Virus record (IMG/VR): IMGVR_UViG_3300038657_000134
Location: 1 to 33,089 of that record
Direction: 5' to 3' (one strand)
DNA from: a virus
Length of the DNA stretch: 33,089 nt
Below the pieces are notes generated by a model, which was not told the origin of the DNA, did not search any database, and saw only the letters and a list, made by a program, of their open reading frames with translations. Shown here piece by piece: positions 1-13,847 of the stretch. The position numbers were made by a program, and so were the translations under genes. The number at the start of each line of letters is the position of its first letter. The first letter of the stretch is position 1.

Positions 1-2
1 AT

Positions 3-73
3 TCAAGGTGGGAGGAATCGAACCTCCGCCGCTTCCTTCCAAGGGAGGCATGATACCACTTCAAAACACCTAG
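3..73 (-). tRNA. tRNA-Pro (TGG), probable
   Basis: The T arm has a perfect GGAGG/CCTCC stem with a TTCGATT loop. The seven-base anticodon loop CTTGGAA places TGG at positions 34-36. The acceptor stem pairs at 6 of 7 positions and the anticodon stem has one C-A mismatch. No CCA is encoded. A better-paired Pro(TGG) tRNA lies at 3883-3958, so this copy may be degenerating. Confidence 0.65.
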
Positions 74-86
74 ATATCTTTTTTGG

Positions 87-158
87 ATGGCCGCCTAGGG
101 CTCGAACCTAGCTTTCCAGAACCAAAAACTAGCATCCTACCTGATAGACGACCGGCAA
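87..158 (-). tRNA. tRNA-Gln (TTG), divergent copy
   Basis: The T arm is CTAGG/CCTAG with TTCGAGC. The anticodon loop TTTTGGT is the form known from cyanobacterial and plastid tRNA-Gln and reads TTG. Two acceptor pairs are mismatched and the discriminator is T, so aminoacylation is uncertain. A second Gln(TTG) of different sequence lies at 402-476. Confidence 0.68.
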
Positions 159-314
159 TAATTTTGTAGTATACCGCCTTATAGTGGTACACTTCCGCTT
201 TTCTAAACTCAGTGCTGCGGCGCCAGGCTTACGCTCTATCACAGTGCCCGCAAGCCTAATCGCTAGGACCGATCGCTCACTGCTTGTATATACTACAAAA
301 ATTCGATTAATTGG

Positions 315-386
315 TGGAGTGCCGGGGAATCGAACCCCGAATTCCTGCTTGCAAAGCAGGTGTGTTCCCGTTAGCACTAGCGCCCC
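315..386 (-). tRNA. tRNA-Ala (TGC)
   Basis: The anticodon stem CCTGC/GCAGG is perfect, with loop TTTGCAA and anticodon TGC. The T arm is CGGGG/CCCCG with TTCGATT. The acceptor GGGGCGC/GCACTCC pairs with one C-A mismatch and the discriminator is A. Confidence 0.9.
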
Positions 387-401
387 GTTATTTGCGACGG
401 G

Positions 402-476
402 CTGGGGGAGAAGGAATCGAACCTCCCAAAAATCAGCTTCAAAGGCTGATGCATCACCATTCTGCTACGTCCCCCA
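402..476 (-). tRNA. tRNA-Gln (TTG)
   Basis: The acceptor TGGGGGA/TCCCCCA is fully paired with discriminator G, as expected for Gln. The anticodon loop CTTTGAA gives TTG and resembles the T4 tRNA-Gln loop. The T loop is TTCGATT. No CCA follows. Confidence 0.88.
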
Positions 477-491
477 ACGTTGTTCATTTAC

Positions 492-796
492 TCATTTTTT
501 ATAAAATTCACCAGCTATCATACTATGCCCATATTCAGTTGGATGGCCACAAGCATGATGATACTCTTTTCCAAGATCTACAAGATGATTATTTATTTGA
601 CAATCAAAAAATGTAATATCGTTTAAGTTTTCATATTGTGGTCTTAACGCGTCATATACGTTGTTGCTTATGTGATTTTTTCCATCAGCAAATGACCAAT
701 ATATGTTGTTGTAACCAAGGTTATGAATTGTGTTTATATATACAATACGTAACCGTTCAATCCATAACTACATGCATGTACTATTAATTTTGACAT
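492..796 (-). pseudogene. Frameshifted small gene, SGNH-like C-terminal motif
   Basis: Translation from the ATG at 796 gives a protein starting MSKLIVHACSYGL that stops after about 20 codons. The frame one base away stays open to a TGA at 492 and gives an uninterrupted, protein-like sequence including YNNIYWSFADGKN and ending GHPTEYGHSMIAGEFYKK. The span is 305 bases, one base short of a whole number of codons, so a single-base loss within about 30 bases (roughly 730-765) splits one gene of about 101 codons. The HP-x3-GH-x3-A pattern near the end resembles the last conserved block of SGNH/GDSL hydrolases, but no catalytic serine block is visible. It lies between tRNA-Gln and tRNA-Leu. A sequencing deletion or programmed -1 frameshifting could also explain it. 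Confidence 0.6.
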
Positions 797-823
797 CTCT
801 ATTGAACCACAGTCTTAATATTT

Positions 824-901
824 TGGTGCCCCTGGAGGGACTCGAACCCCCAAAACTTCCGGACCTAAACCGGACGACTTTACCAATTTGCCCACAGGGG
901 C
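824..901 (-). tRNA. tRNA-Leu (TAG) with short variable region
   Basis: The acceptor GCCCCTG/CAGGGGC is perfect, with discriminator A and an encoded CCA. The anticodon stem TCCGG/CCGGA carries loop TTTAGGT, identical to the E. coli Leu(TAG) loop, and the D arm AAATTGGTA also matches Leu. Only about six bases separate the anticodon and T stems, whereas bacterial tRNA-Leu normally has a long variable arm. Confidence 0.85.
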
Positions 902-1015
902 TATATTGAATCGATTAATTTATATTAGAACAGTACTTTTTTACAGTACCGGCACTACACCAATTATACCCTAATTCTTTCAATGTAGCATTCATACTAC
1001 CGCATATCTTTTTAT

Positions 1016-1213
1016 TTATTCTTTAACTTCGGCCTCAGCCAGCTTTGCTTTTGCAAGCTTCTTTGAAACTTTAGTAAGAAGTTTGCTATAACGCTTGACT
1101 TCCTTCTTACCTATTTCGCTTTCCATTTCAGCATTATAGTCATCAGTGATGTAAATGCTTTGAAGATTAATATATTCCATCAAGTCTTCTACGTCTTTGG
1201 TATTAAGTTTCAT
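1016..1213 (-). CDS. Small charged protein, unknown function (65 aa)
   Basis: This 65-residue protein begins MKLNTKDVEDLMEYINLQ and ends in a Lys/Ala/Glu-rich stretch (KVSKKLAKAKLAEAEVKE) likely to form an amphipathic helix. No family is recognised. A sigma70-type promoter (TTGACA, 17 bp, TAATAT) lies 30 to 58 bases upstream of the ATG, which supports an independent gene inserted in the tRNA array. The ribosome binding site is weak (AGAAAGC about five bases before ATG). It has no cysteines and no membrane segment. Presumably it is expressed early and made as a lone product between tRNA-Leu and tRNA-Gly. Confidence 0.7.
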   Translation of the reverse strand: MKLNTKDVEDLMEYINLQSIYITDDYNAEMESEIGKKEVKRYSKLLTKVSKKLAKAKLAEAEVKE

Positions 1214-1242
1214 CGTGTTGCTTTCTGATTGGTTGTTAAGTT

Positions 1243-1271
1243 ATATTACACTAAAATTTAGATAGTGTCAA
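1243..1271 (-). promoter_or_regulatory. Sigma70-type promoter for the 65-aa gene
   Basis: On the minus strand TTGACA (1271-1266) is separated by exactly 17 bp from TAATAT (1248-1243), about 30 bases before the ATG at 1213. The -10 context (AGTGTAATATA) is the same as in the promoter at 6876-6904. Confidence 0.75.
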
Positions 1272-1409
1272 CTTTTATTTTAACACTAGACCCTTATACT
1301 ACATGGCTGACGCCAAGCCGATCAAGCAACCCCCGGATCTTTCGCGTATGAGGCGACCGTATTATCGACTGCTCGTCAAAACAGTACAGCTCTTAGTCGT
1401 TTCAGCCAC

Positions 1410-1429
1410 AGTATAGTTGACGCTATACT
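1410..1429. repeat. Inverted repeat in a gene-free stretch
   Basis: AGTATAG and CTATACT form a perfect 7-bp stem around a 6-base loop. It lies in the 1272-1525 spacer, where I see no coding frame or tRNA. There is no U-tract on either side, so it is not a canonical terminator. Confidence 0.4.
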
Positions 1430-1525
1430 CCGACCTAGTGCGTTGTTGTTGGCAGTCAAACATGCGTTCTCTTAGCCTATCTGCCCTATGTCGTTACATT
1501 TGACGTTGGATAGGTACCGTTATTT

Positions 1526-1608
1526 TGGAGCGGATATGGAGAATCGAACTCCTTACTCACAGCTTGGAAAGCTGCTGAAGACACCAGTCTCCATGAAGTT
1601 ATACCCGC
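1526..1608 (-). tRNA. tRNA-Gly (TCC) with enlarged D arm
   Basis: The acceptor GCGGGTA/TATCCGC, discriminator T and encoded CCA match tRNA-Gly of T4-like phages. The anticodon loop TTTCCAA gives TCC. The D region is about 24 bases, roughly seven longer than usual, and is bounded by a direct repeat of CTTCA, suggesting a slippage duplication. Confidence 0.85.
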
Positions 1609-1721
1609 AATGTGGTTGGCACTACCTCCTGGTCAAGGCGTTTTAACTGAGTCTTGGCTCCTCAGTACCGTATTTGTTGTGTTTACAATAGCATTTATTC
1701 TAATGCTTGTCAACACCTATT

Positions 1722-1797
1722 TGGTGCCGCACCAGGGGATCGAACCCTATTCTCTGGTGCTTCAAACCAGCGCTTTGACCGACAAAGCTAGAGCGGC
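1722..1797 (-). tRNA. tRNA-Phe (GAA)
   Basis: The anticodon stem CTGGT/ACCAG is perfect, with loop TTGAAGC giving GAA. The acceptor GCCGCTC/GTGCGGC has one mismatch, discriminator A and an encoded CCA. The T loop is TTCGATC. Confidence 0.92.
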
Positions 1798-1817
1798 AAA
1801 TATTTTAACCAACAAAA

Positions 1818-1889
1818 TTATACAAGCGGGGATCGAACCCACGTCTCTAGCGTAACTGCTAGCGTCCTTGTCCATTAGACCGTTATAGC
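1818..1889 (-). tRNA. tRNA of unclear identity, six-base anticodon loop
   Basis: The D stem (GTC/GAC with TAATGG in the loop), anticodon stem CTAGC/GCTAG and T arm GTGGG/CCCGC all form. The anticodon loop is only AGTTAC, one base short and without a T at position 33. If that T is lost the anticodon would be GTT (Asn), but this cannot be decided. The two outer acceptor pairs are also mismatched and no CCA is encoded. Confidence 0.65.
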
Positions 1890-1959
1890 AAATTATATTG
1901 CACAGTTGCAGCCATGCCAAATAACCGTTTGTTGGTTGAGGTCCTGCAAGACCTATCTT

Positions 1960-2047
1960 TGGAGCAGAAGCGAGGTTTCGAACCCACGGTAGCGAACCGC
2001 GATGTCCCGGCGGACACTGCTTTCCATTTAGCGTTAACTACTTCTGC
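1960..2047 (-). tRNA. tRNA of unclear identity, long variable arm
   Basis: The acceptor GCAGAAG/CTTCTGC is perfect, with discriminator T and an encoded CCA. A variable-arm hairpin (CGGT/ACCG) is present. The anticodon stem GTGTC/GACAT encloses only six bases (CGCCGG) without a T at position 33, so the anticodon is uncertain. The D region carries several extra bases and the T stem has mismatches. It may be non-functional. Confidence 0.6.
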
Positions 2048-2130
2048 ATATAATTCTAGTAGGGCAGTTTGCCGCTTTGACCAATCTCTTGGGTCACCCT
2101 CACAAGGGGTGATTATATCACTACTAACTT

Positions 2131-2215
2131 TGGTGGGTAAGTGTGGAGTCGAACCACACGCTTTTACACTCCGGTTTTACAGACCATCTGCCGATACCCT
2201 CGACTGAACCTACCC
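2131..2215 (-). tRNA. tRNA-Tyr (GTA)
   Basis: The acceptor GGGTAGG/CTTACCC, discriminator A and CCA are present. The anticodon loop CTGTAAA gives GTA. The extended variable arm and D arm are typical of bacterial tRNA-Tyr. The T arm TGTGG/CCACA is perfect. Confidence 0.92.
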
Positions 2216-2395
2216 AAATTCTTTTGATCCTCCTAAACCCCAAACGGGGAAACTCTTGGATCTCTGATAGAGTTTGGAATGGTAGCGCGATCACGCGCAA
2301 CTGTTTAGATACTGTAGATGATTTCACGAACGAACAAGTGAGCGCTATTGTCTCGTGTGTCTTTCCAAGACAGTTGTGTTAACAGTATCTAACTT

Positions 2396-2470
2396 TGGTC
2401 GTCCTGGGAAGAATCGAACTTCCGACCCAAGAGTTATCAGCTCTTTGCTCTCCCACTGAGCTACAGGACG
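2396..2470 (-). tRNA. tRNA-Ile (GAT)
   Basis: The acceptor CGTCCTG/CAGGACG is perfect, with A73 and encoded CCA. The anticodon stem AAGAG/CTCTT with loop CTGATAA gives GAT. The D arm (TAGCTCAGTGGGAGAGC) is canonical. Confidence 0.93.
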
Positions 2471-2484
2471 TAATTTCTAGGGAT

Positions 2485-2557
2485 TGGCACCCCCGGGATG
2501 AGTCGAACATCCGTAAGCAAGCTTCGTAGGCTCGCCACCAGATCCGCTGGCGGAGGT
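2485..2557 (-). tRNA. tRNA-Arg (ACG)
   Basis: The acceptor ACCTCCG/CGGGGGT pairs throughout (one G-T), with G73 and encoded CCA. The anticodon loop CTACGAA matches E. coli Arg(ACG). The A34 would need host TadA-type deamination to inosine. Confidence 0.9.
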
Positions 2558-2572
2558 ATAGGTCGTTATAAT

Positions 2573-2645
2573 TGGTTGCGAGGGCTGGAAACGAGCCAGC
2601 GAAGTTTTGCTTATGAGACAAAACGGGATACCAATCCACCGCGCA
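2573..2645 (-). tRNA. tRNA with CAT anticodon (Met or Ile2)
   Basis: The anticodon loop CTCATAA gives CAT. The acceptor TGCGCGG/CCTCGCA has one mismatch, followed by A73 and CCA. The 3' end (CTCGCAACCA) and 5' region (GGTGGATTGG) recall initiator tRNA, but the three G-C pairs typical of initiator anticodon stems are absent, so elongator Met or lysidine-type Ile is as likely. The T loop begins CTCG rather than TTCG. Confidence 0.83.
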
Positions 2646-2715
2646 ATATAGGAGTACAGTTATTTATCTAATCACAGCCTAGTGAGTTGCCCTGAACTCT
2701 AATCTGCGTCAATTT

Positions 2716-2790
2716 TGGAGCGGGTAGAGGGTAACGATCCCTCTTCTACTGATTGGCAACCAGTCGTAATAACCTGTATACTATACCCGC
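2716..2790 (-). tRNA. tRNA-Gly (GCC)
   Basis: The acceptor GCGGGTA/TACCCGC is perfect, with discriminator T and CCA. The anticodon loop TTGCCAA gives GCC. The T arm is GAGGG/CCCTC with loop ATCGTTA. Confidence 0.92.
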
Positions 2791-2919
2791 AAAATTCGGC
2801 CCACCGTTGACTGTTCTTTGCTTTACGACACTTTGGACCAGGCACGGTGGGGACACGAGGTGGTCGATCCATTGGAATAGTTTATCGCGCGAACCACTAA
2901 ACTCAACGTATTCTATTTT

Positions 2920-3006
2920 TGGCAAGGGTGGAGGGAATCGAACCCACTAAGCGATTAAGCACTGGTTTTGGAAACCAGCCCAACTCTCCAACGTTGGCGC
3001 ACCCCT
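2920..3006 (-). tRNA. tRNA-Trp (CCA) with expanded variable region
   Basis: The acceptor AGGGGTG/CACCCTT, G73 and encoded CCA resemble E. coli tRNA-Trp (also AGGGG at the 5' end). The D stem CCAA/TTGG and anticodon stem CTGGT/ACCAG are perfect and loop TTCCAAA gives CCA. The variable region is 14 bases and is a tandem duplication (GCTTA, ATC, GCTTA) rather than a paired arm. If read as a class II Ser-type body instead, it would be a serine tRNA with a Trp anticodon; the duplication makes Trp simpler. Confidence 0.78.
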
Positions 3007-3062
3007 ACAATTAATTGGCTTTCCAGCTACCTTGGAAGTAGGATTTTCTCACTTGTACTTTA

Positions 3063-3096
3063 CATTACGACAGCTTTTAACTGAGAGATCGTAATG
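3063..3096. repeat. Stem-loop between tRNA genes
   Basis: CATTACGA and TCGTAATG form a perfect 8-bp stem around an 18-base loop in the spacer between tRNA-Trp and the next tRNA-like element. It could act in processing of the polycistronic tRNA precursor. No U-tract follows. Confidence 0.4.
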
Positions 3097-3112
3097 ACCA
3101 AGACTGGAATTA

Positions 3113-3190
3113 GTACCTAGGCAGGACTGTTACCTGCATCTCCACGGTTCAGAGCCGGGCGGGTGGGTTCTAATATTACCCTACTAGATA
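3113..3190 (-). tRNA. tRNA-like element, CTG anticodon (possible Gln)
   Basis: The acceptor TATCTAG/CTAGGTA pairs fully with one G-T. The T stem GCAGG/CCTGC is perfect, but its loop TAACAGT lacks the conserved TTC. The anticodon loop CTCTGAA gives CTG. The D arm is atypical and the discriminator is C. It is probably a decaying or unusually diverged tRNA. Confidence 0.42.
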
Positions 3191-3193
3191 TTC

Positions 3194-3269
3194 TGGTGCT
3201 GCTTCGAGGACTTGAACCCCGCACCTCCTGCTTACAAAACAGATGCTCTACCTGATGAGCTAAAGCAGC
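3194..3269 (-). tRNA. tRNA-Thr (TGT)
   Basis: The acceptor GCTGCTT/AAGCAGC is perfect, with A73 and CCA. The anticodon loop TTTGTAA gives TGT. The D arm TAGCTCATCAGGTAGAGC is canonical and the T loop is TTCAAGT. Confidence 0.9.
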
Positions 3270-3275
3270 ATAATT

Positions 3276-3419
3276 TTAACTGAGAATTAAGATTGTTGCC
3301 ATGATAGTAACACCTAGCACTACGTAAACCCAGTTTTGTGGTAGTTTTCCAAGTACCCAGCCAAATAGGCCGCCGTATAGTATTAATAGTCCAGGTAGCA
3401 ATGCGATATCTGCAAACAT
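3276..3419 (-). CDS. Small hydrophobic membrane protein (47 aa)
   Basis: The 47-codon frame starts at an ATG at 3419 preceded by GGAGAAATATA, a strong ribosome binding site. The product begins MFADIALLPGLLILYGG. It has two hydrophobic segments (about residues 4-20 and 29-46) separated by a short KLPQNW turn, so a two-helix hairpin in the inner membrane is likely. A perfect T4-type late box TATAAATA lies 21 to 28 bases upstream, which argues for late expression as a lone gene between tRNA-Thr and tRNA-Cys. No family is recognised. A holin-like or other membrane role is possible on size and timing, but nothing in the sequence proves it. Confidence 0.75.
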   Translation of the reverse strand: MFADIALLPGLLILYGGLFGWVLGKLPQNWVYVVLGVTIMATILILS

Positions 3420-3439
3420 TATATTTCTCCAATGTACAT

Positions 3440-3447
3440 TATTTATA
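3440..3447 (-). promoter_or_regulatory. T4-type late promoter box for the 47-aa gene
   Basis: The minus strand reads TATAAATA, an exact match to the T4 late promoter consensus, ending 21 bases before the ATG at 3419 with a GGAG ribosome binding site between them. Confidence 0.7.
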
Positions 3448-3506
3448 CATCGATCGCAATCTAATTTTGGCGCCGCAGGCTGGGCACAAACATGTACAAT
3501 TATTCT

Positions 3507-3590
3507 TGGAGTAGACGGCGAGAATTGAACTCGCTAACTTTCGTTGCCTGGGATTTGCAATCCCGCCCCTTACCATCCGGGCCCGTCTAC
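3507..3590 (-). tRNA. tRNA-Cys (GCA) with extended variable arm
   Basis: The acceptor GTAGACG/CGTCTAC is perfect, with discriminator T (as in Cys) and CCA. The anticodon loop TTGCAAA gives GCA. About 15 bases lie between the anticodon and T stems and can form a small arm (AAC, GAAA tetraloop, GTT); most bacterial tRNA-Cys have only 4-5. Confidence 0.87.
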
Positions 3591-3670
3591 ACTGTGTAGT
3601 TGGCTCAACCCGGGCTATGTCGGGCGACTTGGCTACTTCTTCAATAAGGCCGAAGTAGTACCGTAATTTT

Positions 3671-3745
3671 TGGCGATCTATACGGGACTCGAACCCGTCT
3701 TCTCCGGTAGACAACCGGGTCCCTTCCCTGATAGGATAATAGACC
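3671..3745 (-). tRNA. tRNA-Asp (GTC)
   Basis: The acceptor GGTCTAT/ATAGATC has one G-T, with G73 and CCA. The anticodon stem CCCGG/CCGGA carries loop TTGTCTA, anticodon GTC. The T arm GACGG/CCCGT has loop GTTCGAGT. Confidence 0.92.
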
Positions 3746-3882
3746 AATTTCAGCCGGATAATTCTTTGATATGCGTCCGGATCCGCATGATTTTCGGTGC
3801 TAGGTCATTTGCAGTAGCCCTAGCCATTCCACATTTTTCAGGCCACACTTGACGTCCGTGTTGCCCTTTTATACCGAAATTT

Positions 3883-3958
3883 TGGTCTCTCAGGCAGGTC
3901 TCGAACCTGCGCTCTTCCCGCCCCAAACGGGATGACTTACCACCTAGCCTACTGAGAG
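3883..3958 (-). tRNA. tRNA-Pro (TGG)
   Basis: The acceptor CTCTCAG/CTGAGAG is perfect, with A73 and CCA. The anticodon stem TCCCG/CGGGA and loop TTTGGGG give TGG. The T arm is GCAGG/CCTGC. Confidence 0.92.
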
Positions 3959-4201
3959 ATATTCGTAAATTAGTGCTAAACATCCTGGCTCGTCAAGTAC
4001 AATACTTGTTCCACAGTCCCCACTGCCAGCTAGACAGTAACCCACGTTTAGCTGTGGTTCGGTGCCTCGGATGATCTTTCGATCAAATTCTTTTGCACAA
4101 CACAAGGCGGTCCATATATCTTTAAGATACCGCTCTTCGGGCAGAGTAAAGGTTCCGGTGCCCCGATTAAGTGTTCTTTCTGTAAATAACCAAGCATATT
4201 T

Positions 4202-4293
4202 TGGCAGATAGAGTGGGATTCGAACCCACGGAGGGCGGTAAAACCCTCGCTGGTTTTCAAAACCAGAGCCTTCGTCCACTCGGCCACCTATCC
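4202..4293 (-). tRNA. tRNA-Ser (TGA)
   Basis: The anticodon stem CTGGT/ACCAG with loop TTTGAAA gives TGA. A long variable arm (GAGGG...CCCTC type), G73 and CCA are typical of tRNA-Ser. The acceptor GGATAGG/TCTATCT pairs with two G-T. Confidence 0.93.
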
Positions 4294-4302
4294 ACATCTT
4301 TA

Positions 4303-4673
4303 CTAATCACCAATGTAATCAGCTAAATAAAGTTTACCATCTCGGTCTTCAACAACAGCAAACGCAACACCAGTGTCATATGTATCTTCATCAAGGTAAA
4401 AACCGCGCTCTGATACAAAGTCTGATACTGCTCTTTTTGACATTCTACCGTAGCCCATTCGTGCTACTGTTGCATTTTCGTCAAAAATAGAATACTCGTC
4501 AAATTCATAATCGACTCCGCCTGGCTTGCACTTATACCGGCGCTTCCATTTCTTAGGATCAGTTGCATCGTTAATTAGTCCAGGAATTTCTTCTCCATAT
4601 ATCGAAACAACTATGCTTTTATTTTTCTTAACAAAATTAGCAATAAAGTTTTACATTCTGCAGTAGTAGCCAT
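4303..4673 (-). pseudogene. Frameshifted gene of about 123 codons, unknown function
   Basis: An ATG at 4673 with a good ribosome binding site (AGGAAAG) starts MATTAECK and then runs into a stop in that frame. After a one-base shift at a run of four A (about 4649-4652), the frame stays open to a TAG at 4303 and gives a coherent acidic protein including IVVSIYGEEIPGLIND, RRYKCKPGGVDYEFDE, SDFVSERGFYLDEDTYDTG and the end KLYLADYIGD. The span is 371 bases, one short of whole codons. The A run fits a single-A deletion, a homopolymer sequencing error, or -1 slippage. No family is recognised. It lies between tRNA-Ser and a truncated tRNA-Trp. Confidence 0.68.
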
Positions 4674-4698
4674 ATTCTTTCCTAATTGTTATCGATTT

Positions 4699-4764
4699 TG
4701 GCGGGGGAAAGGGATTCGAACCCTTGGCAGTTCTGATTGGACCCAGTCCACTTGGTAAGCCCCC
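4699..4764 (-). tRNA. Truncated tRNA-Trp-like element (CCA anticodon)
   Basis: The T arm AAGGG/CCCTT with TTCGAAT is perfect, followed by five C, G73 and encoded CCA. The 5' side has five matching G. The anticodon region (GTCCAA between CTGG and TCAG) reads CCA but has a six-base loop. Only about 11 bases replace the D arm and one acceptor base seems missing. It is likely a decayed tRNA or a minimal, D-arm-less one. Confidence 0.45.
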
Positions 4765-4773
4765 AAATACTAT

Positions 4774-4850
4774 TGGCTCTGCACAAAGGATTCGAACCTT
4801 TCACTAAACGGTTAACAGCCGTTCGCCCCCGCCTAGAGGGCCCGTGCAGA
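4774..4850 (-). tRNA. tRNA-Asn (GTT)
   Basis: The acceptor TCTGCAC/GTGCAGA is perfect, with G73 and CCA. The D stem GCCC/GGGC and anticodon stem AACGG/CCGTT are perfect, and loop CTGTTAA gives GTT. Confidence 0.93.
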
Positions 4851-5011
4851 GCAAATAGTACATTTATTGTATTTGCGCTAATACCCAATCTCTACTCCTC
4901 CGGTCCGGTTTTATGTTTCGATGGGGTCGCTATTAGACTAGCCATTAAAACATTACTCGGGACCAGTATGCTGTCGTACACGCAATGCCTAACTTCCTGT
5001 GCACCTGTGCA

Positions 5012-5088
5012 CCACTATGACGGGAATCGAACCCGCTCTCGGTCGTTAAAACATCACTACATATTCTATACACCAGTCTAGCTTTGTT
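5012..5088 (-). tRNA. tRNA-like remnant with a perfect T arm
   Basis: GCGGG/CCCGT with TTCGATT is a clear tRNA T arm, but I could not build a convincing anticodon or acceptor stem upstream. The loop region contains GTTTTAAC. No CCA is encoded. It is best read as a degenerate tRNA. Boundaries are approximate. Confidence 0.35.
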
Positions 5089-5089
5089 A

Positions 5090-5670
5090 ACTGCGTCGAC
5101 TCAGTAATCGGATATTAGCGAAAATACAATCTACTTCGTTGCCCCATTTTTATAAGTGGTCCTATATGCCCAGGGTCATTTGGGCAGCCCACTCACGATA
5201 ATCTCAGGCTATCGCAACCTAGTCCGATTTTTTTGCAACGATCTAACGTCACGCCATCCTCAAACACGCCCATTCGATCTTATTTAGAGTGGATGATCGC
5301 AGTCGCGTTCCGCATCCCACTATTACTACAAAGTCTTATAAGCTACTAACTTTGCTCTGTCTTGTTCCTTACAGTAGCGCATCTATTTCTAGTTGTCAAC
5401 TACTTTTTACTTTTCTTTTTTTGCATCTGCGTCTTCTAAACTTGCGTTTGATCTGCGTCTGCTTCGTTACTATAAGTAATGCATCTTGTCTACAATGTCA
5501 ACTACTTTTTTATAAAATTTCCAACTTTTTGAAACTTTGTAAAAACTTGGTTAGTGTGTCGTTGCTTAGTAGTTGTAACAGCGTTAGTTTATAGTGTCAA
5601 GTGCTAAATTATTTTATTTTGCGTTACTAACATAACCTCTGTTAGTGTGCATCTTTGTGTTAGTGTCAAA
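5090..5670. other. Gene-free stretch below the homing endonuclease
   Basis: I see no convincing gene on either strand here. It holds the TTGACA motif cluster, a repeated AAATTATTTTATTTT block (near 5605 and 5668), a repeated ATCTGCGTCT pair (about 5424 and 5450) and a hairpin-like GCCCA/TGGGC near 5168. It is probably regulatory and repeat-expanded. Confidence 0.5.
5371..5600 (-). promoter_or_regulatory. Cluster of TTGACA -35 motifs upstream of the tRNA array
   Basis: On the minus strand TTGACA occurs at 5600-5595 (17 bp before TACAAC at 5577-5572), at 5501-5496 (poor -10, TACTTA) and at 5399-5394 (17 bp before TACTGT at 5376-5371). A further TTGACA at 5669-5664 has no good -10. All point toward the tRNA array below. 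The copies share context such as AAAGTAGTTGACA and AAAATAAAATAATTT, so they look duplicated. The 5600 copy is the most credible promoter. Confidence 0.5.
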
Positions 5671-6291
5671 TTATTTTATTTTTCTTCCTTTGATCCATCC
5701 ATTTGGTATAATATCATCCTTTGCTATCTTTTTGTTTATCGTATTATCTGTAATCCACATTGTTCCAAATTGACTGTTTTTTCTTCCTGTTGCTTTTCCT
5801 CTTGAATTCTGACTCATTAGTTCTTTTGTTTCGTTTGTATGTCTTTTTCCTTTAAAGGATGGAGGCATCGGTTTGTTTCCATCTTGGTATAACTTAGCAT
5901 TTGCTGCATGACAATAGAGACCTGGTTTAATTCCTTGTCGCTTGCATGTCTCTGACAATGATTTGCGTGACTCTGGTGTATGTAATGATCTTAAATTGTG
6001 TCTATTAATATAACTGAAACCGCCTTGTCCACCAACACATAAATTGTATGTATCAGTCCTCATACAAAATTCTTCTGTTACTAACTCTTTTTCTTTGTCG
6101 TTCATCTCCTGTTCAGTGTTGTAATCAAATAATATTTCTTTAATAAACGCTGCTTTGCCATATTTGGTAATTGCATGTTGTAAATATTTGCCTGATCCTA
6201 AATAGTTATCGTTTGGGTTATTTGTTTGGTGCTTTCCAATATAGATTTTAGTGCTGGCGATGTGGGTCGTCTTGTAAATAGTGTAGTGCAT
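5671..6291 (-). CDS. GIY-YIG homing endonuclease
   Basis: The 206-residue protein starts MHYTIYKTTHIASTKIYIG, showing the two GIY-YIG signature strands (YTIY at 3-6, YIG at 17-19) followed by GKHQT and DNYLGSGKYL. A helix rich in Glu (about residues 58-73) supplies the usual acidic position. The C-terminal half has short repeated DNA-binding motifs of the SegA/NUMOD kind, including SRGKATGRKNSQFGT and IPNGWIKGRK. Such enzymes cut DNA lacking the element and so spread between phages. A ribosome binding site (TAGGA) and an exact late box TATAAATA lie upstream, consistent with late expression of free-standing phage endonucleases. It sits within the tRNA array, a common home for such genes. Intact length suggests activity. 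Confidence 0.9.
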   Translation of the reverse strand: MHYTIYKTTHIASTKIYIGKHQTNNPNDNYLGSGKYLQHAITKYGKAAFIKEILFDYNTEQEMNDKEKELVTEEFCMRTDTYNLCVGGQGGFSYINRHNLRSLHTPESRKSLSETCKRQGIKPGLYCHAANAKLYQDGNKPMPPSFKGKRHTNETKELMSQNSRGKATGRKNSQFGTMWITDNTINKKIAKDDIIPNGWIKGRKIK

Positions 6292-6323
6292 AGTTTATAT
6301 TCCTAGTTTTACGCCGTTGCTAC

Positions 6324-6331
6324 TATTTATA
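6324..6331 (-). promoter_or_regulatory. T4-type late promoter box for the endonuclease
   Basis: TATAAATA on the minus strand, exact to the T4 late consensus, lies 33 to 40 bases upstream of the endonuclease ATG. Confidence 0.7.
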
Positions 6332-6346
6332 TAAACTATGCAAATG

Positions 6347-6422
6347 TAGCCCCGACCGGATTCGAACCGGCACCCTCCTGATTGAAAGTCAAGCGTACAT
6401 AAACCATTTATACCGCGGGGCC
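6347..6422 (-). tRNA. tRNA-Glu (TTC)
   Basis: The acceptor GGCCCCG/CGGGGCT pairs with one G-T. The anticodon loop CTTTCAA gives TTC. The T arm GCCGG/CCGGT has loop TTCGAAT. The discriminator is A and only CA of the tail is encoded. Confidence 0.9.
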
Positions 6423-6441
6423 ATACTAAAACATGTGTTTT

Positions 6442-6518
6442 TGGTAGCGCACCCGGGTTTCGAACCCGATTCTCTAGCTTGAGAGGCTAGCGACCATCAC
6501 CAAGTAGTCCTCTGCGCC
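6442..6518 (-). tRNA. tRNA-Glu (CTC)
   Basis: The anticodon stem CTAGC/GCTAG is perfect, with loop CTCTCAA and anticodon CTC. The acceptor GGCGCAG/GTGCGCT has one mismatch, then A73 and encoded CCA. It is the first tRNA of the array in transcription order. Confidence 0.85.
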
Positions 6519-7075: not shown

Positions 7076-7104
7076 AATATAGTGTGTACATGCCCGGTTG
7101 TCAA
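7076..7104 (-). promoter_or_regulatory. Sigma70-type promoter at the end of the Smr gene
   Basis: TTGACA (7104-7099), 17 bp, TATATT (7081-7076). It overlaps the last codons of the Smr gene. Downstream I see only a possible 17-codon frame and a potential 66-base structure closed by GCCCTGT/ACAGGGC (about 6953-7018), so its product is unclear. Confidence 0.6.
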
Positions 7105-7340
7105 TAGCTCTTTTTGGTTTTTTTGAATTTAATCGTCCAGCTTCCTGGATTGTGCTTGTGTTGGATCGCACTGTTGACTCTAGGGTGCAAGCGGCACCAT
7201 GTCTCAAATTCTGTCATCATCTGACCTTGACCAATTATCACTGTCATGCTGCGGGCACCTGTATGGTATGCAGTCTCTGCACTGTCGTTGAACCGGTGCC
7301 ACGCAGTATGAATTTGATATCCGTGTAAGTCTAATGCCAC
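7101..7340 (-). CDS. Smr-domain protein (79 aa)
   Basis: The protein is essentially a stand-alone Smr domain, the fold found at the C-terminus of MutS2 and in small bacterial endonucleases acting on branched DNA or stalled mRNA. The LDLHG motif is at residues 3-7, followed by a helix and strand ending in VIIGQG (34-39), which replaces the usual HGxG, and the closing GSWTIKFKK strand (66-74). Loss of the second motif histidine may alter or abolish nuclease activity while keeping nucleic acid binding. The start is a GTG six bases after the stop of the upstream gene, with a weak ribosome binding site, so translation is probably coupled. A promoter overlaps its 3' end. Confidence 0.8.
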   Translation of the reverse strand: MALDLHGYQIHTAWHRFNDSAETAYHTGARSMTVIIGQGQMMTEFETWCRLHPRVNSAIQHKHNPGSWTIKFKKTKKSY

Positions 7341-7346
7341 GGCTAG

Positions 7347-7964
7347 TCAGTCTGGTGAGTTGTCGAAAAACTTTAGCTTGTACATCGCGGAATGCTCTTT
7401 TTTACGAAATGCGATACTGACATCTCCACCAAACTTGCTATAGATTTGATAGTCACGTAGTTCACAATTATCATATAGCCACTTTGCTACTTGTTCATAG
7501 TACTTGCGTTCCAGCATATAACTGGTGATGAAATTCTTTCTCTTAATGAGGAAGAGCTGGACCATCTTAGATAATTTAGGAGGTAATTTGCGTTTGGTCT
7601 TCAAGGTGTCTATATACTCTTCAACCTTACAGGCAGTATAATATCCATGCGTGTTACTATCAAATCTAACACTGAAACTGAAACTGTACGGTTTAATATC
7701 AGAAAATGTACTAGTTTCATGTTCCACCGTGAATTTGTCTTGACAATCTGTTCTCACCTGGAGAATGAATTTGAATAGTTCTGCCATGACAGCTGGTGAA
7801 ACACTGTCAAATCTGGGATAAGCTGTACCCAGTAATGGTTTCAGTTTGTCAGGATTGACATCTAACTTGAATAACATGCCGGATTGTCCTTTAGGGTTAA
7901 GTGGTTGAACCGATTGCCACATCGTTTGATAGATGGCTCGGCCATAATATACATTTGGGACCAT
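7347..7964 (-). CDS. Unknown protein (about 205 aa)
   Basis: I place the start at the ATG at 7964, which follows the stop of the chimeric mini-ORF by 16 bases and gives MVPNVYYGRAIYQTMWQ. The frame is open further upstream, where a TTG at 8051 would add 29 residues of a Leu-rich segment, but that part overlaps the mini-ORF in another frame. The protein is basic in its second half (KTKRKLPPKLSKMVQLFLIKR) and rich in aromatic residues, with no membrane segment and no motif I recognise. The closing stretch includes YSKFGGDVSIAFRKKE. The ribosome binding site is weak. A late-type box at 8169-8177 could drive it. The next gene, Smr, follows after 6 bp. Confidence 0.75.
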   Translation of the reverse strand: MVPNVYYGRAIYQTMWQSVQPLNPKGQSGMLFKLDVNPDKLKPLLGTAYPRFDSVSPAVMAELFKFILQVRTDCQDKFTVEHETSTFSDIKPYSFSFSVRFDSNTHGYYTACKVEEYIDTLKTKRKLPPKLSKMVQLFLIKRKNFITSYMLERKYYEQVAKWLYDNCELRDYQIYSKFGGDVSIAFRKKEHSAMYKLKFFDNSPD

Positions 7965-7980: not shown

Positions 7981-8145
7981 TTAATTGTAGGCACGTCGAC
8001 TGGACTCCACTCGACCGTTTGCAACAGCGTCAGCGCCAAAGCTAGCAGCAAAGCTATCTGTAGTTAGTTTACGAAATCCATAATAATATCGTTCATCACT
8101 GTCAGGATGATAACATGTAATACGATACACATAAAATACTTGCAC
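7981..8145 (-). pseudogene. Chimeric mini-ORF: GIY-YIG-like start joined to a YkuK-type C-terminus
   Basis: From a GTG at 8145 the frame encodes 54 residues and has no ATG. The first part (FYVYRIT...YYYGFRK) has the spacing of a GIY-YIG N-terminus. The second part, DSFAASFGADAVANGRVES, nearly repeats the C-terminus of the preceding YkuK-type gene, DSFAASFGADRAANGKIES. The two copies differ at the DNA level almost only at third codon positions: 9 of the first 10 codons differ in sequence but not in amino acid. This means both copies were under protein-level selection. It lies directly after the YkuK gene and a stem-loop. I infer a residue of an endonuclease insertion that displaced the original gene end. 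It could still be a small functional gene. Confidence 0.55.
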
Positions 8146-8174
8146 AATCGATCTTCTTTGTCGTGCAAGTATTT
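8134..8174 (-). repeat. Perfect 12-bp stem-loop after the YkuK-type gene
   Basis: AAATACTTGCAC and GTGCAAGTATTT pair perfectly around a 17-base loop. The upper arm overlaps a late-type box and the lower arm contains the GTG start of the mini-ORF. It could be a processing or attenuation hairpin. Only four T follow, so it is a weak terminator at best. Confidence 0.6.
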
Positions 8175-8177
8175 ATC
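8169..8177 (-). promoter_or_regulatory. Late-type promoter box GATAAATAC
   Basis: The minus strand reads TGATAAATAC, the same nine bases found upstream of the genes at 12103 and 13805. It could start a late transcript of the 205-aa and Smr genes. Confidence 0.45.
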
Positions 8178-8192
8178 ACTTAGACATCAATA

Positions 8193-8684
8193 CTAGGCTT
8201 TACTCTCTATTTTACCGTTTGCCGCCCGATCTGCTCCGAAACTAGCCGCGAAACTGTCTGGCTTTAGTTTGATGTGCTCTGTTGGTAGGCCGGTCACGCC
8301 AAGAACATAACCTGCTGCTTCTGCCGCTGCGCAATTAGACCCATGTTTTGGATCCTGCGAAATATCAAGGTGCACCTCAATGTCAAACTCATCGATGAAC
8401 GGGATAAGCTGTGTGTACATTTCACACACTTTTTGCACTTCCTTCATCATTCGCATCTTGGGACGACTAATTTTGACATCGTAATCAGGTTCTGAGCTTA
8501 GGTGACTAAAAAGACGGCAACCGTGCTTTCCGTTGATGTGCACAATAAACACAGTCGCGTATGTCGCGATCCAACGTCCATTTTTACGTGATCTAACACT
8601 GTCGCAACCAAAATAAATCTTTGTGCTGGTGTCTAATGTAGCGAGCAATTCTACAATTTCTTCTACTCGTTCTTGACTGAACAT
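8193..8684 (-). CDS. YkuK-type (DUF458) RNase H-fold protein
   Basis: The 163-residue protein shows the pattern of the YkuK/DUF458 family, predicted RNase H-like nucleases. The first strand KIYFGCDSVRS (about 22-32) carries an Asp at the position of the first catalytic acidic residue, followed by WIATYATVFIVHI. A second acidic strand IEVHLDISQDPK comes near residue 105, then the conserved C-terminal block LKPDSFAASFGADRAANG. Length fits the family (about 160-170). The role in phage is unknown; nucleic acid processing is an inference from the fold. It is the first gene behind the promoter at 8762-8790, with a 5' leader of about 70 bases containing a direct repeat of AACTACCAAT. The ribosome binding site (GAGATAG) is weak. 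Its C-terminus is repeated in the following mini-ORF. Confidence 0.8.
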   Translation of the reverse strand: MFSQERVEEIVELLATLDTSTKIYFGCDSVRSRKNGRWIATYATVFIVHINGKHGCRLFSHLSSEPDYDVKISRPKMRMMKEVQKVCEMYTQLIPFIDEFDIEVHLDISQDPKHGSNCAAAEAAGYVLGVTGLPTEHIKLKPDSFAASFGADRAANGKIESKA

Positions 8685-12617: not shown

Positions 12618-13805
12618 TTATACAACAATTAAGTGCTTAGTTACGTTATACGTTGTGTTGTTAGCCGAAGCGGCTGTTGCAAGTACACGAACATTTCCTG
12701 CATTTATATCTACATCGTATGTTGCTAACGGACTTGCTCCAGTATGAATAGCAACATATTCGGTGGCAGATGCTGTTGTTCCATTGTGGACAACCAGCAG
12801 TTCAGTAATATGAACTTCTCCTGTCACAGTATCTGTCGCTTGTATTGCAAATTTACCTGACGAATAAGAAGTTGCAACAAACGAAGCAATTGCCGTCTGT
12901 GTTATAGCGGTAGTAGAACCAGTCTCACCTGACAAATCAAACAGCGAGGTGACTGAAATGGTATTTGGTAACTCAACTGTGACAGTTGCTACACCACTTA
13001 CATCCGTTACAGTAACCATTGAGCCAACAAAATTGGCCGTTGCACTTGTTACTACGGCCACACCTTCTTCTTGCCATGCAGTAGATCCGCCACCACCTGC
13101 TGCATCAAGTGTAAGTGTATTCCCTACATCATCATATGTTAGCGTAACATTTGTGCCTCCGACTAGTAATGCTGCAATGCGATCATCAACCCGTTCGTTT
13201 GTAAAATACTGGTTAACGCCTTCGCTTAGGTTGGTAGTTGACTTAGCTGTAAATGCTGAGTTAAATCTACTTTGGGTAAAGTAAAAATTTTGCCCCTCAG
13301 TTAGATCGGTAGTTGACTTAGCTGTGAGTGCAGAATCAAATCTTGCTTGGCTAAAGTATAAATTTGCACCTTCGCTCAAATCAGTAGTTGACTTAGCTGT
13401 AAATGCACTATCAAATCTTGCTTGAGTGTAATAAAGGTTAGTGCCTTCAGCAAGATCAGATGTCGTTTCACCTGTCAAATTACTTGCTATCGTAACAGTG
13501 GCAATCCCGTTGATATCTATTACAGACACGTTAGCACCTACAAAGTTAATATAGTTGGGCAATTCATTTATTATTATGCCTTCATCTTGAACACCAGTAG
13601 TAGTGCTAAACGCAAGGTTTTGAATGTCTGAAATTAATTTTTGTACATTCTTAACATTTGATCCCAATCTAGTGGTAACTAATCCAGGTGCCGGTCCACT
13701 TGAAGTGCTAGTGGCAGAATCATTTGCAATGGCAGCAAGTACCTGTGCGTCGATGTCTACTTCATTTAGCAATGTAGTGAGATCAGTTAGTGTATTTACT
13801 GGCAT
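12618..13805 (-). CDS. Tail-fibre-like protein with tandem EG-N-YF repeats (395 aa)
   Basis: Residues about 110-210 contain four tandem copies of a module of the form TTDLxEGxNxYFTQxRFDSAFTAKS, widespread in T4-like fibre and neck-fibre proteins, where it forms elongated trimeric stalks. A Gly-rich linker (AAGGGGSTAWQEEG) separates this from a beta-rich C-terminal half with Val/Thr strands (VVTSATANFVGSMVTVTDVS, VTVELPNTIS). A short N-terminal part (MPVNTLTDLTTLLNEVDI) is probably the attachment region. The protein is likely trimeric and surface exposed. The ribosome binding site is GAAGGATATAAC and a late box lies 34-42 bases upstream. The LamG-like gene follows after 10 bp. Confidence 0.82.
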   Translation of the reverse strand: MPVNTLTDLTTLLNEVDIDAQVLAAIANDSATSTSSGPAPGLVTTRLGSNVKNVQKLISDIQNLAFSTTTGVQDEGIIINELPNYINFVGANVSVIDINGIATVTIASNLTGETTSDLAEGTNLYYTQARFDSAFTAKSTTDLSEGANLYFSQARFDSALTAKSTTDLTEGQNFYFTQSRFNSAFTAKSTTNLSEGVNQYFTNERVDDRIAALLVGGTNVTLTYDDVGNTLTLDAAGGGGSTAWQEEGVAVVTSATANFVGSMVTVTDVSGVATVTVELPNTISVTSLFDLSGETGSTTAITQTAIASFVATSYSSGKFAIQATDTVTGEVHITELLVVHNGTTASATEYVAIHTGASPLATYDVDINAGNVRVLATAASANNTTYNVTKHLIVV

Positions 13806-13838: not shown

Positions 13839-13847
13839 GTATTTATC
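13839..13847 (-). promoter_or_regulatory. Late-type promoter box before the fibre-like gene
   Basis: GATAAATAC on the minus strand, with a second box-like CATAAATAT directly downstream, lies between the stop of the giant gene and the fibre-like gene. Confidence 0.6.

Follow-up and report, generated by a model that had tools for sequence, protein, structure and literature searches.

In the 33,089-base stretch of viral DNA analysed here (IMG/VR virus record IMGVR_UViG_3300038657_000134, hereafter the window), the 3' end of a ykuK gene is followed, in the next open reading frame, by a second copy of itself, which raises the question of how one gene came to leave two ends in tandem. The best explanation, to which we give a probability of roughly 0.88, is that the window carries an inactive, decayed scar of a GIY-YIG homing endonuclease which would have travelled together with a substitute ykuK 3' end.

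The ykuK gene, its duplicated tail and the endonuclease stub

The window YkuK matched the Pfam RNaseH_like family (E=6e-13; 49.4 bits against a curated cut-off of 25 for PF04308) and phrog_11311 (E=1e-44), and its relatives in loci L001-L003 were 81-87% identical, with L001 the closest at 87%. Structure prediction was poor (pLDDT 61, with the C-terminus <50), and a sequence search of the PDB returned nothing useful. On the minus strand, a short ORF (8145-7981) comes after ykuK (8684-8193) and is itself succeeded by a conserved gene from ~7877 (Table 1). This last gene lies in a 234-aa ORF, of which the alignment with L003 starts only at residue 54, and since its start codon is probably the ATG at 7877, it would not overlap with the endonuclease stub described below. 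A small Smr-domain protein is encoded two genes past ykuK (7101-7340, minus strand; Pfam E=2e-7), with a homologue near ykuK in L003 too.

Table 1. Positions of the features at the ykuK locus of the window
Feature	Position	Strand	Description
ykuK/DUF458 gene	8193..8684	-	163 aa; PF04308, RNase H-like
Copy A of the tail, DSFAASFGADRAANGKIES	8202..8258	-	inside ykuK; the tail that YkuK now uses
Possible late promoter, GATAAATA	8170..8177	-	differs by one base from the T4-type late promoter element TATAAATA
Stem-loop of the endonuclease leader	8134..8174	-	3' arm holds the stub start codon; fold z=-2.45
GIY-YIG homing endonuclease remnant	8059..8145	-	first 29 codons, with the GIY-YIG motif and the Arg after it; rest deleted
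Copy B of the tail, DSFAASFGADAVANGRVES SRRAYN, stop	7981..8058 (DSFAASFGADAVANGRVES = 8058-8002)	-	ykuK 3' end in frame with the endonuclease stub
Next gene, conserved, function unassigned	7347..7877	-	homologues directly after ykuK in clean-site L002 and L003

The surroundings of ykuK are rich in tRNA genes, with a cluster of 18 at positions 1-6518 of the window, all on the minus strand. The gene also stands among tRNA genes in the named phages RpAliso, DSS3P8, MD18, MAL1, DLP_6 and X1, in two of which an annotated peptidyl-tRNA hydrolase adjoins it, and this neighbourhood hints at a role of ykuK in tRNA or RNA processing. Inside the tRNA cluster there is a second GIY-YIG homing endonuclease, apparently intact (5671-6291, minus strand; phrog_314 E=2e-41; NUMOD3 below cut-off), with relatives in L001 and L012 and with TATAAATA at 6331, 40 bases before its start.

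The short ORF behind ykuK comprises 54 codons and reads first as a GIY-YIG-like segment, FYVYRITCYHPDSDERYYYGFRK, and then as copy B, DSFAASFGADAVANGRVES, which stands behind FYVYRITCYHPDSDERYYYGFRKLTT. The initial annotation had reported the ykuK end as repeated in this ORF, and both copies were indeed found there; when 126 ykuK loci were scanned, the window duplicate scored 86, against a maximum of 42 for 252 reversed or reverse-complement controls, so the duplication is not due to chance. Downstream duplicates in L055-L057 scored 83 in the same scan. Of the 19 codons of copies A and B, 15 specify one and the same residue in both, and ten of these 15 are different codons: nine of the ten in DSFAASFGAD and only one of the last five. 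The statement that nearly every codon of the core differs at its third base is thus accurate for the core and does not extend to the whole tail. The further claim of a recoded, cleavage-resistant tail gained no support, as 51-58% of synonymous codons differ between ordinary ykuK genes of the group and 10/15 is no significant excess over this background (P=0.21 at 53%; P=0.34 at 58%); the core alone gave P=0.02-0.04, uncorrected for its having been picked. Synonymous differences between A and B therefore give no sign of deliberate recoding, and ordinary divergence of the imported tail from the native one may itself protect against cutting.

Residues 4-29 of the stub were 73% identical over 26 residues to an intact endonuclease at the same place in contig L004 (E=1e-9), as expected from the earlier proposal that the front of the mini-ORF is the start of a GIY-YIG enzyme. 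The GIY-(N)-YIG motif and the following Arg are present (YVYRIT..YYYGFR aligns with L004 and L016), while the catalytic Glu and Asn and the DNA-binding region are absent through a deletion after residue 29. In profile searches the stub, too short for a confident match by itself, gave phrog_314 at E=0.11, which does not reach the family threshold, and no Pfam match, and among named phages there was neither a nucleotide match nor a match to the mini-ORF. The stub starts with GTG and has a weak ribosome-binding site. Judged by its sequence, the window holds an endonuclease remnant and not an active member.

The stub is preceded by a leader with a predicted stem-loop, of which 12 pairs are common to L001, one of them changed on both sides (C-G to U-A) with pairing kept. 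Stem-loops were likewise predicted in L016, L053, L054 and L088, and a weak one in L004 (z=-1.1); L016 repeats the arrangement of the window and L001 around its ribosome-binding site, and in the leaders of HNH endonuclease genes the stem-loop shortly precedes that site and has two pairs in which both bases have changed. At the sequence level, TATAAATA was found in all six intact element leaders of relatives. As a mark of the mobile element this motif was rejected, as it also follows ykuK in L061, where there is no endonuclease. Further copies of GATAAATA occur on the minus strand at 13847 and 12154, the former 42 bases before ORF 12618-13805, which suggests that late promoters of the window have the form NATAAATA.

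Full, empty and eroded sites among relatives

IMG/VR contig L004 carries, directly behind ykuK, a complete GIY-YIG ORF of 213 aa starting MSYYYTYRITCHHPDSIEKYYYGFRKSKT, which matched the phrog_314 homing endonucleases (E=2e-21) and contains NUMOD3 and the candidate catalytic residues E74/E79 and N91. With 29 codons kept in the stub, most of the endonuclease has been lost from the window, as the initial annotation had supposed. Contig L012 is the empty-site counterpart of L004, and the nucleotide identity of their ykuK genes falls along the gene, with 93% in codons 1-100, 81% in codons 101-130 and 64% in codons 131-153 (Fisher P=1.5e-7 for codons 1-130 versus 131-153). The native end of L012, beginning ATTGCTCATGGCCGAGG, and its downstream DNA resume in L004 16 nt past the endonuclease stop, with 87% identity over 180 nt. 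The ykuK gene of L004 is therefore a mosaic, which gained a foreign end together with the endonuclease while its native tail was pushed downstream; this before-and-after pair supports the proposal of an endonuclease that arrived at the ykuK end with a tail of its own. A donor of the imported tail was not found, L032 and L040 being similar to it in the protein tail and not in DNA. The stranded native tail begins ~11 codons later in the gene in L004 than in the window, and so either the insertion points differ or later changes have blurred them. Of the relatives that carry an intact element, the nearest reaches only 69% identity to the window in YkuK, and all element-bearing relatives are metagenomic assemblies.

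Empty alleles were found in L002, L003, L012 and L061. Among the closest relatives, L002 and L003 have no stub, the next gene directly following ykuK, and L001 has a further-eroded remnant which retains the leader and ~16 codons before a different continuation. Full endonuclease, eroded remnant or clean site was thus what relatives showed, and none had the mini-ORF as an independent conserved gene. Alternatively, the mini-ORF could be a domesticated small gene or a leader, composed of stem-loop and short peptide, that regulates ykuK or the next gene. A stem-loop kept, with its two-sided change, in both remnant carriers and a stub frame open for 54 codons would agree with such a function, but the short and differently continued frame of L001, the GTG start with its weak ribosome-binding site, and the absence of the stub from L002 and L003 make it unlikely.

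Many endonuclease-free genomes of a distant ykuK clade end their gene with ADRLKEILAA and a stop, or similar. Within this clade L016 has a new end, RLKEVLYNQQKKLHVG and stop, followed by a GIY-YIG gene and then by the displaced tail GRLKQVLAA and stop in frame, and L053 has RLKEILYNQQKIA and stop, an HNH gene, and the displaced ADRLKHVLAA and stop in another frame. An endonuclease behind the host gene with the 3' end of that gene duplicated downstream was thus found in L004, L016 and L053 and, as a remnant, in the window. HNH genes also stand directly behind ykuK in L054, L088 and L062, and the ykuK genes of L062 and L068 are 93% identical in the body and 74% in the tail. Three contigs, L055-L057, have two gene ends in tandem without an endonuclease, as in the window, and their ykuK is 100% identical to that of L061 in the body and 79% identical over the last 25 aligned codons. 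At the DNA level these contigs are identical to L061 up to the last ~25 codons, after which they continue with a tandem pair of foreign gene ends and with unrelated DNA downstream, which by all appearances is a very recent swap of tail and flank. In L177, only the C-terminal part of an HNH endonuclease (2179-2700; ending KKWHGDKCKLRVY and stop) directly follows a ykuK with the unusual end ICADKFPELQSEKY and stop, evidently another decayed element. In total, 84 non-redundant loci and further loci yielded six intact elements and several remnants, a tally that gives no estimate of frequency as some loci came from searches with the elements. None of 10 named phage records has an endonuclease annotated directly behind ykuK.

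Origin of the two tails in the window

We infer that copy A, upstream and within ykuK, is the imported tail and copy B the displaced native one, because it is the upstream tail that is the import in L004. Few residues bear on this in the window itself. Copy A has ADR.ANGK.E in common with the other remnant carrier, L001, with which it shares the residues R and K, and copy B shares residues A and R with the clean-site relatives. Compared over 57 nt, L003 is identical to copy B at 44 positions and to copy A at 37, and L002 gives a near tie (39 for A, 37 for B). A diverged imported tail combined with a downstream tail like that of the empty relative was found for L004 versus L012, and the window is suggestive only.

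The near symmetry of these counts would also suit the opposite polarity, in which the native tail is copy A and copy B arrived with the element, as an endonuclease that settled behind ykuK with a recombined ykuK fragment of another phage at its own 3' end, so that no rescue of the host gene was needed. We regard this as improbable, as the foreign tail of L004 lies upstream and its downstream tail agrees with the empty-site relative, and the downstream tails of L053 and L016 are the short LAA-and-stop end of endonuclease-free relatives. A plain duplication of part of the ykuK 3' end inside a single genome, with coincidental likeness to GIY-YIG enzymes, has a precedent of sorts in the tandem tails without endonuclease of L055-L057, but is highly improbable given that a full endonuclease matching the stub occupies this locus in a relative, that 10/15 differing codons are too many for a recent copy, and that L004/L012 and L053 show the inserted intermediate.

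Proposed mechanism and comparison with known systems

In the preferred reading of a decayed homing endonuclease with a substitute gene end, the enzyme would cut ykuK alleles near the codons of the conserved FGAD motif, and repair from an element-bearing genome would bring in the element along with some adjoining ykuK sequence. The reading frame of the host gene would then run on through the imported tail to the stop codon there and so stay intact, the endonuclease would follow with its own leader, consisting of the stem-loop over its start codon and possibly a late promoter, while the native 3' end would be left stranded downstream. A later in-frame deletion in the window would have left 29 endonuclease codons joined to the stranded tail.

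Phage endonucleases in genes are usually tolerated by means of an intron, an intein, a split gene or an intergenic position, and a replacement tail would be a further route. At ykuK, two enzyme families occur at a single gene, whose sites can be compared in the full, empty, eroded and scar states, and the pairs L004/L012 and L055/L061 form a testable before-and-after series. Such events would account for some short, odd phage ORFs, which would be scars, and for some reshuffled gene ends, which would stem from homing and not from point mutation.

Engineered home-and-rescue gene drives use a nuclease cassette that rebuilds the end of the targeted gene in altered codons. The arrangement at ykuK is natural in contrast, and its codon changes show no excess over ordinary divergence. 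We consider it probable, with less confidence than the reading of the window itself, that in large phages the ykuK 3' end has been targeted repeatedly by two unrelated endonuclease families, GIY-YIG and HNH, each bringing a substitute gene end, and that this would be a natural form of home-and-rescue new for phages.

The free-standing seg and mob endonucleases of T4-type phages (PMC2988022) are similar in being GIY-YIG or HNH enzymes beside conserved genes, with conversion of flanking DNA, and in having a late-promoter element and a stem-loop that covers or closely precedes the ribosome-binding site, both of which are seen here at the sequence level. They sit between genes or split a gene in two (mobE in Aeh1 nrdA, mobA), and the passages of that review consulted mention no replacement gene end for seg or mob (PMC2988022). 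Unlike the seg type, insertion at ykuK alters the host coding sequence, whose 3' end is duplicated or replaced.

The closer likeness is to the mobile ORFs (mORFs) of fungal mitochondria, in Allomyces macrogynus atp6 and in atp6, atp9, cox2 and nad3 of Glomus sp., in which an endonuclease gene has likewise entered a conserved gene at its 3' end, a foreign C-terminal segment replaces the native one, and the native segment is left downstream (PMC3630166). There, identity to the empty relative is 64-81% for imported ends and 91-98% for native displaced ends, and, as here, the native copy is nearer in DNA to empty relatives than the imported copy is (PMC3630166). In contrast to the mORFs, which are mainly LAGLIDADG, the present, putatively mobile elements involve GIY-YIG and HNH enzymes at a bacteriophage nuclease gene and have a leader with a stem-loop and a T4-type late promoter element. 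A phage description of tail replacement was not found in the open-access literature, which leaves out most subscription papers. Tail replacement by mobile endonucleases is thus known from fungal mitochondria, and, judged against the open-access literature, its occurrence in phages appears to be new.
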